NCBI RefSeq assembly: GCF_009600605.1
Contig: NZ_VWNA01000001.1
Coordinates: 1-64,000, forward strand
Reading direction: 5' to 3'
Source of the DNA: Segnochrobactrum spirostomi
Lineage (GTDB): Bacteria > Pseudomonadota > Alphaproteobacteria > Rhizobiales > Segnochrobactraceae
Length of the DNA: 64,000 nucleotides
Shown: positions 5,820 through 8,510 of the stretch, piece by piece
Position numbering within the stretch: position 1 is the stretch's first letter
How the letters are laid out: each line of letters opens with the position of its first letter
Position numbers and translations under genes: made by a program
Notes under the pieces: model-generated
Told to the model about the DNA's origin: nothing
Databases searched by the model: none
Seen by the model: only the letters and a program-made list of their open reading frames with translations

Positions 5820-5833
5820 CAGATCGAGTGTAC

Positions 5834-5859
5834 TACGCCGCCGAAGACCACGGTGTTAC
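5834..5859 (-). promoter_or_regulatory. Predicted SigF-type promoter of sigF-nrsF
   Basis: On the minus strand, GTAACA (complement of 5854-5859), a 16-bp spacer, then CGTA (complement of 5834-5837) match the AAC/CGT pattern of ECF promoters and closely resemble the GTAACC-N16-CGAA-like motif reported for Caulobacter sigma-F. The distance to the ATG at 5819 allows a very short leader. Confidence 0.75.
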
Positions 5860-5918
5860 AGCGCGCGTAAAAAATTCTCTCCTCCTCCGGATCGAAGAAA
5901 AAATCGTGGGGGGCCGTG

Positions 5919-5944
5919 TAATGCGGCTTCGGTGCGGTGCGTAG
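5919..5944 (+). promoter_or_regulatory. Predicted SigF-type promoter of the buf operon
   Basis: GTAATG (5919-5924), exactly 16 bp, then CGTA (5941-5944). It has the same spacing and -10 element as the divergent sigF promoter 60 bp away. Transcription would begin near 5951, about 40 nt before bufA. Confidence 0.75.
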
Positions 5945-5991
5945 AGCCCGGTAGCGAGCGGATCGAAAGCTCGCTTTGCAGGAGACACATC

Positions 5992-6344: not shown

Positions 6345-7223
6345 ATGAACGTTCCCGTCTTCCCGGGTCCCGGGCTTCCCCGCCGCGCCGGCGTGGGTTT
6401 CAAGCCGGACCATTTCGCCGACATCGCCGGTGCGGCGCAGCCGATCGGCTTCTTCGAGATCCATGCCGAGAACTATATGGGCGCTGGCGGTCCACCCCAT
6501 GCCCGGCTGGCGCGGCTCCGGGCCGACTATGCCCTCTCGGTCCACGGCGTCGGCCTCTCGATCGGCGGCGAGGACCCTCTCGACGATGACCATCTCTCGC
6601 GGCTCGCCGAGCTCTGCGCGCGCTACGAGCCGGCGAGCTTTTCCGAACATCTCGCCTGGTCGAGCCACGGCGACGTCTTCCTCAACGATCTGCTGCCGCT
6701 CCCCTATACGCCGGCGACGCTCGCCCGCGTCGTCGAGCACGTCGATCGCGTGCAGACGGCGCTGAAGCGGCCGATGCTGCTCGAAAACCCGGCGACCTAC
6801 GTCGTCTTCAGCGAGAGCACCATCGCCGAGACGGACTTCCTCGCCGAGATCGCCGCGCGGACCGGCTGCGGCCTCCTTCTCGATCTCAACAATGTCCACG
6901 TCTCCGCGACGAACCACGGTTTCTCGTCGGCGGACTATCTCGCCGCCTTTCCGCTCGCGGCCGTGGGCGAAATCCATCTCGCCGGCCACGCGGTGGCTGA
7001 TGGGGAGGGGGAGCGGCTGCTGATCGACGCTCACGACCGCGCCGTCTGCGCCGAGGTCTGGGACCTCTACGACCGCCTCGTCGAACGGATAGGCCCGGTC
7101 CCGACCCTGATCGAATGGGACAACGACGTGCCCGATTGGGCGACGTTGCGCGCCGAGGCGGTCGAGGCCGATCGGCGGATGGCGGCGGCCGCGACGCGGG
7201 TCGCCGCGCGCGAAGCGGCGTGA
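6345..7223 (+). CDS. bufB: DUF692 multinuclear non-heme iron oxidase, BufB type
   Basis: The 292-residue protein is a DUF692 (MNIO) enzyme, the family that modifies cysteines in RiPP precursors using a di- or tri-iron centre. Conserved acidic and histidine positions are present: E38/H40/E42/N43 in [12 protein letters not shown]67 in SVHGVG, E101/H102 in FSEHLAWS, E147/N148 in LENPATYV, D180/N183/H185 in [10 protein letters not shown], and E209/H211/H215 in EIHLAGH. By analogy it installs thiooxazoles on the BufA cysteines in the cytoplasm before export. The ATG at 6345 follows GAGG (6333-6336). It lies 62 bp after bufA and 8 bp before bufC. The length is normal and no key residue appears missing. 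Confidence 0.93.
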
Positions 7224-7231
7224 GGCCCACG

Positions 7232-8014
7232 ATGTCGGTGCTCTCGCAATCCGCCGTCTATGCGGCCGTCCGCGATCCCGAAGCGCCGGTGCCGGCGGGC
7301 TTCGCCGGCGATGCCGCGCGCCGCTTCGCGATCTACCGCAACAACGTTGCAGTCGGATGGATCGGGGCGCTCGAAGCGCGCTTTCCCGCCGGGCGGCGGA
7401 TCGTCGGCGAGGATTTCTTCCGCGCCATGGCTGCGGCGTTCGTGCGCGTGCGACCGCCGCGTTCGCGGCTGCTGCATACCTACGGCGACGATTTCCCCGA
7501 TTTCGTCGAGGACTTCCCGCCGGCGGCGGGCGTGCCTTACCTGGCCGACGTGATGCGCCTGGAGGCGGCGCGGACGCGGGCCTACCACGCCGCCGATGCC
7601 GCGCCGCTCCTACCGGAGGCTCTGGCGGCCGTCGCGCCGGAGGCGGCCGAAACGCTCCGCTTCGCCGCCCACCCCGCAGCCGCGATCGTGGCTTCGCCCC
7701 ATCCGATCGTGCGCCTGTGGGCGATGAACGTTGGCGATCTCGCCTGCGGGCCCCTCGACGATTGGATGCCGGAAGCCGCCCTCGTCGTGCGGCCCGGGCT
7801 CGAGGTCGAGGTTCACGCGCTGGAGGCGGGTGCGGCCGCGTTTGCCTTGGCGCTGCTGGCCGGAGTCCCGCTGACGGCGGCCGCCGCGTCGCCGGACGGC
7901 GCGCCCGCGTTCGATCTTGCTGCGACGCTCGGCCTGCTCATCGGCGCCGGAGCGTTCGCCCGCGCAACCGACCTTTCCCCATCATCATCGGAAGACGATC
8001 ATGCCGATCGCTGA
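7232..8014 (+). CDS. bufC: BufC/HvfC-family RiPP maturation partner (DUF2063)
   Basis: The 260-residue protein has the DUF2063 N-terminal domain (about residues 5-95), recognised by RRFAIYRNNVAVGWIGALEARFPAGRRIVGEDFF and the later HTYGDDFPDFVEDFPPAAGVPYLADVMRLEAARTRAYHA. DUF2063 proteins are encoded next to DUF692 oxidases and act as recognition partners that bring the precursor to the enzyme; the C-terminal half is a more variable RRE-like region. The start at 7232 is 8 bp after the bufB stop, with the SD overlapping that stop. Its 3' end overlaps the DoxX gene by 14 bp, so the operon is very tightly packed. It has no signal peptide, which fits a cytoplasmic role. Confidence 0.88.
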   Translation: MSVLSQSAVYAAVRDPEAPVPAGFAGDAARRFAIYRNNVAVGWIGALEARFPAGRRIVGEDFFRAMAAAFVRVRPPRSRLLHTYGDDFPDFVEDFPPAAGVPYLADVMRLEAARTRAYHAADAAPLLPEALAAVAPEAAETLRFAAHPAAAIVASPHPIVRLWAMNVGDLACGPLDDWMPEAALVVRPGLEVEVHALEAGAAAFALALLAGVPLTAAAASPDGAPAFDLAATLGLLIGAGAFARATDLSPSSSEDDHADR

Positions 8015-8510
8015 AATGCTCGACGGCTCAGCCGTCTCCGCCCCCAAAATCTCACCGGCCGTCGCGGCCTTCCGCCTGTTCCGGCGCGGCTGCGAGGCGG
8101 TGCCGCTGTCGCTGATCTCGCTTGGCGCGCGGATCTTTCCGGCCGCCGTGTTCTGGCAATCCGGCGAGACCAAGCTCGAGGGGTGGCACGTCTCGGATAG
8201 CGCGGTCTTTCTGTTCCAGGAAGAATACAAGCTGCCGCTGATCGACCCGTGGCTTGCTGCCCATCTCGCGGCCTTCGCCGAGCATTTCTTCCCCATCCTG
8301 CTCGTGCTCGGGCTCGCCTCTCGGTTCGCGGCGCTCGCCCTGCTCGGCATGACGCTGGTGATCGAGATCTTCGTCTACCCCGACGCGTGGCCGACCCACG
8401 GCGTCTGGGCGATCTCGTTCCTCACGGTCATCGTCCACGGCCCCGGCCTCTTCTCGCTCGATCACCTGATCCGGCGGCGGTTCGATCCCCCGGCCTCGCT
8501 GCGGGCGTGA
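8001..8510 (+). CDS. DoxX-family membrane protein of the buf operon
   Basis: This 169-residue DoxX-like protein has four predicted membrane helices (roughly residues 36-55, 80-102, 108-128 and 135-155). DoxX proteins are common last genes of DUF692 operons and are thought to work in the membrane, perhaps in redox coupling or export of the modified peptide; the exact role is not established. The ATG at 8001 lies inside the end of bufC (14-bp overlap) and is preceded by GGAAG, so translation is probably coupled. It ends 3 bp from the convergent H4MPT-linked gene, with no obvious terminator between them. Confidence 0.85.
   Translation: MPIAEMLDGSAVSAPKISPAVAAFRLFRRGCEAVPLSLISLGARIFPAAVFWQSGETKLEGWHVSDSAVFLFQEEYKLPLIDPWLAAHLAAFAEHFFPILLVLGLASRFAALALLGMTLVIEIFVYPDAWPTHGVWAISFLTVIVHGPGLFSLDHLIRRRFDPPASLRA

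Follow-up and report, generated by a model that had tools for sequence, protein, structure and literature searches.

Predicted divergent SigF-type promoters shared by an ECF16-type sigma factor gene and a bufferin operon in Segnochrobactrum spirostomi

In Segnochrobactrum spirostomi, an ECF sigma factor gene (sigF) and a bufferin-type operon (buf) face away from each other across a short gap, which raises the question of whether the sigma factor would activate both itself and the operon from one shared region. An earlier note had predicted this from two matched sites in the 64-kb window (the whole stretch of DNA that was analysed); its site coordinates, strands, 16-bp spacers, shared CGTA -10 elements and divergent orientation were all recovered unchanged (Table 1), while the separation, given as 60 bp, came to 58 bp when measured from the outer G of one -35 element to that of the other, and the control region, given as 170 bp, to 172 bp between the start codons. 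The pattern GTAAYR-N16-CGTA matched the window twice, against an average of 0.01 matches in 100 shuffles (none with two). As this pattern was derived from the two sites themselves, the published ECF16 motif provides the fairer and stronger test: (T/C)GTAAC...CGAA, together with its CG(t/a) form, fits both sites except that, at position 5 of its -35 element, the buf site has T where the motif has C. The absence of a third copy from the window, judged by eye in the earlier note, held for GTAAYR-N16-CGTA and also for GTAAYN-N15/16-CGWA. Short A/T tracts lie upstream of each -35 element (5867-5877 and 5896-5904) and are possible UP elements; A runs likewise precede both sites of a second NrsF/sigma system of this genome (see below).

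Table 1. Features of the sigF-buf region and related loci in the same genome (positions are those of the window unless a contig or locus is named)
Feature	Position	Strand	Basis
nrsF, NrsF/DUF1109-type anti-sigma, 212 aa	4627..5265	-	PF06532, 198.7 bits (cut-off 26.8)
sigF, ECF sigma factor, 185 aa	5262..5819	-	PF08281, PF04542; NF009165, 259.9 bits (above cut-off)
Divergent intergenic control region	5820..5991		sigF-buf start-codon gap
Predicted SigF-type promoter of sigF-nrsF	5834..5859	-	-35 GTAACA 5859-5854, N16, -10 CGTA 5837-5834
Predicted SigF-type promoter of buf operon	5918..5943	+	-35 GTAATG 5918-5923, N16, -10 CGTA 5940-5943
bufA, bufferin-1-type precursor (DUF2282), 96 aa	5992..6282	+	PF10048, 85.4 bits
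bufB, MNIO bufferin maturase	6345..7223	+	NF050167, 385 bits (above cut-off); PF05114
bufC, DUF2063 partner protein	7232..8014	+	PF09836, 86.4 bits
bufD, DoxX-family membrane protein	8001..8510	+	PF07681, 66.1 bits
Second NrsF/ECF pair	G000:C1:1927234-1928870 (L037 1235-2871)
Third CGTA site, ahead of msrP-type gene	G000:C1:2355198-2355223
msrP	L039 2351-3366 (G000:C1 about 2355350-2356365)		NF003767, 398 bits, catalytic part

Gene content on the sigF side corresponds to that of ECF16 SigF/NrsF systems: the sigma factor has regions 2 and 4 only, an NrsF/DUF1109 anti-sigma gene recognised by PF06532 lies downstream (its start overlapping the sigF end by 4 bases), and a GTAAC-N15/16-CGWA promoter sequence stands ahead of the sigma gene. 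On the narrower NF042994 equivalog profile NrsF scored 91.9 bits, below the cut-off of 300. Two conserved cysteines, Cys129 and Cys179, were both kept in 104/104 aligned relatives and were matched by position to residues 131 and 181 of the Caulobacter protein. On the other side, a DUF2282 precursor with a signal-like N-terminus (AGGAG at 5980-5984), an MNIO maturase and DUF2063 and DoxX partners make up a bufferin-1 cluster; the available text of PMC12452194 describes clusters of this composition and notes sigma and NrsF genes in them.

Comparable arrangements have been characterized experimentally. In Sinorhizobium meliloti, the ECF16 pair rpoE7-ecfR7 is likewise divergent from a four-gene DUF692 and DUF2063 operon (SMb20530-SMb20527); both divergent promoters, of rpoE7 and SMb20530, were mapped (GTAACA, spacers 16 and 15), overexpression of the RpoE7 sigma factor induced both, and promoter fusions showed no response to H2O2, Cd or chromate, according to the available text of PMC6180224. 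Both -10 elements there are CGAA, whereas both here are CGTA, and the buf -35 here is GTAATG. In Caulobacter crescentus, SigF drives itself, the CC3254 buf operon and msrP, with reporter and mutant data for the sigF and CC3254 promoters, and cysteine mutants identify two functional NrsF cysteines (131 and 181). Copper induces the C. crescentus SigF regulon, including msrPQ, and raises sigF and nrsF alike; a sigF mutant is copper-sensitive. The present locus resembles this system in gene content, in the two NrsF cysteines and in msrP as a third (here predicted) target, but the Caulobacter promoters are GTAACC-N16-CGAA rather than ending in CGTA, and a second buf operon is under SigF there. The autoregulated ECF16 system EcfF/OsrA of Bradyrhizobium japonicum has the motif GTAAC(g/a)-N14-15-(c/t)CG(t/a), which already allows T as the third base of the -10 element; the available text of PMC3420878 does not mention a DUF692 or DUF2282 partner operon. 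Brucella melitensis BcrS/AbcS, also ECF16, has mapped TGTAAC...CGAA promoters for its own and its target operon; that target is bcrXQP, unlike buf here, and DUF692 is not mentioned in the available text of PMC8315932. Divergent matched ECF16 promoters for a sigma factor and a buf operon are thus already published, with the window a further example, and since experiments on RpoE7 of S. meliloti and SigF of C. crescentus have demonstrated the control logic, the idea is not new.

Our main reading, held at a probability of about 0.9, is that the sigF-buf gap is a divergent ECF16-type SigF/NrsF control region, in which SigF freed by stress would read the promoters of sigF and buf along with that of msrP. 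Following the Caulobacter model, the membrane anti-sigma factor NrsF would hold SigF at rest, and copper or other thiol-reactive stress at the two NrsF cysteines would release it. Free SigF with RNA polymerase would then read both GTAAY-N16-CGTA promoters, the sigF-side one re-supplying sigF-nrsF as feedback and the buf-side one yielding the bufferin precursor, its maturase and the partner proteins, by which periplasmic copper would be buffered; a third promoter would drive msrP for the repair of oxidised methionines in periplasmic proteins. Given that the S. meliloti fusions were unresponsive to H2O2, cadmium and chromate, we infer the signal here. In this way sequence alone would fix how a copper-buffering RiPP operon is controlled, and a three-part predicted regulon (sigF-nrsF, buf and msrP) would be extended to Segnochrobactrum spirostomi.

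To establish how widely the site pair is kept, 107 sigF loci, many of them close kin, were compared: 27 from genomes with an NrsF match (L007-L033) and 80 named-genome loci from a SigF-alignment search (80 of 407 confirmed relatives), leaving out L034 and L035 (below cut-off) and L036. The strict motif was found ahead of sigF in 95/107 loci (CGAA in 65, CGTA in 30; spacer of 16 in 65, of 15 in 30), and a buf operon divergent from sigF was recognised in 37/107. Both promoters were present in 31 of these 37 divergent loci with the strict motif in a fixed 320-bp window, in 32 when the region ran from bufA to just inside sigF, and in all 37 with a relaxed motif (other -35 first bases and C as the -10 last base) that was settled on once the five misses were known; a reversed-motif control matched in 2/37 (strict) and 3/37 (relaxed). 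The divergent promoter pair is therefore near-universal in the 37 divergent loci examined. Within the 320 bp upstream of the 107 sigF genes (68,480 bases, both strands) the motif occurred 134 times (reversed, 2; complemented, 2), compared with 7 times in the other 770,350 bases of the loci (reversed, 21; complemented, 21). From locus to locus, paired -35 elements lay 33 to 152 apart (outer bases), so the promoter pair resembles two independent units rather than one fixed operator. The GTAAT form of the buf -35 is rare in relatives (4/31 buf sites, 2/95 sigF sites). Identical -10 elements, which the earlier note had pointed out, are present but not special in themselves, with 6/37 loci having CGTA on the sigF side and CGAA on the buf side. 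Together, the protein domains, the ECF16 motif and the conservation of the site pair support the prediction that the sigma factor would activate itself and buf from a shared region.

For autoregulation there is a competing reading, namely that SigF reads both sites while sigF is expressed mainly from another promoter, so that autoregulation is minor and the region acts as a one-way switch for buf. C. crescentus sigF shows no strong auto-induction by metals (that by Cr/Cd is weak) and depends on a second regulator, to which its promoter also answers, and Brucella bcrS is reported to have basal expression without its sigma factor (PMC8315932, available text). Against this, the sigF-side site is the better conserved of the two (36/37 strict and 37/37 relaxed, compared with 32/37 and 37/37 for the buf-side site) and is present in 95/107 loci, and autoregulation is reported for both bcrS and B. 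japonicum ecfF in the available texts of PMC8315932 and PMC3420878. A one-way switch is unlikely, if far from negligible, and sigF in this organism would be expected to be autoregulated. Two Pleomorphomonas loci (L091 and L103) lack a GTAA motif in the 320 bp upstream of sigF; there, an apparent DoxX gene end precedes sigF on the same strand, and an upstream buf promoter may read into the system. A near-leaderless sigF mRNA, suggested by the short stretch from -10 element to start codon (median 17 bases; 14 in the window), was set aside, the starts of this survey having been set by a rough rule (62/95 GTG); a Shine-Dalgarno-like word was present in 67/95 sigF leaders, taken from the -10 element to the assigned start, and bufA starts were unreliable in about half of the rows.

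The genome-wide search with GTAAYN-N16-CGTA proposed in the earlier note returned 6 matches against 23 for the reversed pattern (49 against 69 for a looser pattern), so enrichment of the promoter word was rejected, and the position of the sites, not their number, carries the signal; the search did yield an additional candidate target, msrP. This lack of genome enrichment, together with a pattern picked after its sites had been seen, is what could be said for coincidence as the explanation of the match between the two sites; the chance expectation, the known ECF16 motif and conservation relative to controls refute it in practice. Sorting 31 genome loci (the 6 strict matches and 25 of the 49 looser ones) by rough gene calls, which missed bufA itself, gave no plausible target gene for the strict CGTA sites C1:2258507, C1:2258816 and C3:562354. 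The third CGTA site lies ahead of an msrP-type gene whose Tat-signal-like N-terminus is read in another frame than its catalytic part; with this frame change near the 5' end, the msrP gene may be broken or mis-sequenced. In C. crescentus msrQ stands beside msrP, whereas here msrP has no msrQ-type neighbour, and the genome's one Ferric_reduct match lies at C1:3936147.

Linkage between motif and msrP was evaluated in 26/29 genomes with an NrsF match and 30/72 without; dropping those that lacked a full-length msrP left 19 and 23 genomes (24 loci), respectively. A motif stood no more than 400 bp upstream of msrP in 9/19 genomes with the system vs 1/24 loci without (Fisher P = 0.0022); two of the nine motifs end in CGAT, and with CGWA only the figures are 7/19 vs 1/24. 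In the named set (30 of 80 genomes searched, 29 used), a sense-strand motif preceded msrP in 8/29 genomes (one CGAT) and an opposite-strand motif lay near msrP in a further 8/29, six of which have the strict motif facing ilvD. The link is common, not universal, and suggests that msrP, away from the sigF-buf locus, probably belongs to the SigF regulon as well. The msrP CGTA site in this genome and the linkage of the msrP motif to genomes with the system are among what the present comparison adds; neither a many-locus survey of both sites nor the CGTA/CGAA paralogue split described below was found in the open-licence PMC papers searched. The putative ilvD, named from its sequence as a dihydroxy-acid dehydratase (an Fe-S enzyme), has GTAACAAA-N16-CGTA ahead of it, divergent from msrP, in six Rhizobium-group genomes (L209, L212, L213, L215, L216 and L217), and is a possible further SigF target.

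All three sites in this genome, at sigF, buf and msrP, have CGTA, while its second NrsF/ECF pair, with a sigma factor homologous to SigF at 34% identity, has a GTAACC-N16-CGAA site on either side. One stands 5' of the sigma gene; the other overlaps the anti-sigma stop codon and precedes a small Lys/Thr-rich ORF with a signal-like start (L037 2959-3171). In a genome of the same family (G001, L036), both sites recur around the homologous pair. With such a homologue and sites so close to the window motif, the second system (G000:C1 about 1927530-1928848) might read or share the window promoters. Its sites nonetheless carry A as third base of the -10 and C as sixth base of the -35, unlike all three CGTA sites, and the same split recurs in six multi-copy Rhizobium-group genomes, which makes sharing quite improbable. 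Further NrsF copies were sought in 39 of the 80 named genomes (L072 left out). In seven of eight genomes with several SigF systems, the main system has CGTA and a paralogue CGAA, and each of the six Rhizobium-group genomes has at least one CGTA system and at least one other, CGAA system. The buf-linked system has CGTA at both promoters in G102, G104, G134, G136 and G137 (with a second CGTA system in G104), and G103 has CGTA at one system and CGAA at the other, with buf not seen. The exception is G001, whose buf system has ATAACA/CTAACA-N16-CGAA and in which the -35 element, (A/C)TAACA instead of GTAACC, appears to be what sets the systems apart.

One tentative explanation is that -10 base 3 insulates paralogous SigF/NrsF systems from one another, G001 doing so through the -35 element; the whole sigF, buf and msrP regulon would have shifted to CGTA, with sister systems keeping or regaining CGAA. 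One-base promoter insulation has reportedly been seen for SigX and SigW of B. subtilis. The base at this position agrees in 31/37 sigF/buf pairs (TT 12, AA 19, TA 6, AT 0; Fisher P = 1e-5) and is the same in sigF and msrP sites in 12/13 cases; as proof of co-evolution this covariation was rejected, the rows being related and shared ancestry a possible cause. The sigma tree contains only 3 and 2 supported independent pairs, and CGTA is scattered on it (14 changes, of which supported branches force at least 6). No residue in the inspected region-2 stretch separates the CGTA from the CGAA class, which speaks against strict insulation; T- and A-type Rhizobium sigma factors are nearly alike there, and the top mutual-information columns (S150, W13 and K182, first-protein numbering) fall outside it. 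CGTA in single-copy genomes and six loci mixing CGTA with CGAA inside one system also argue against insulation, which we consider doubtful, and a tie of CGTA to multi-copy genomes was rejected, as many genomes with one NrsF also have CGTA. The paralogue split nevertheless offers a cheap and direct test of cross-talk avoidance by related ECF sigma factors. Tandem or near-tandem NrsF gene pairs follow a single sigma gene in G103, G134 and G136 (L271, L280 and L282).
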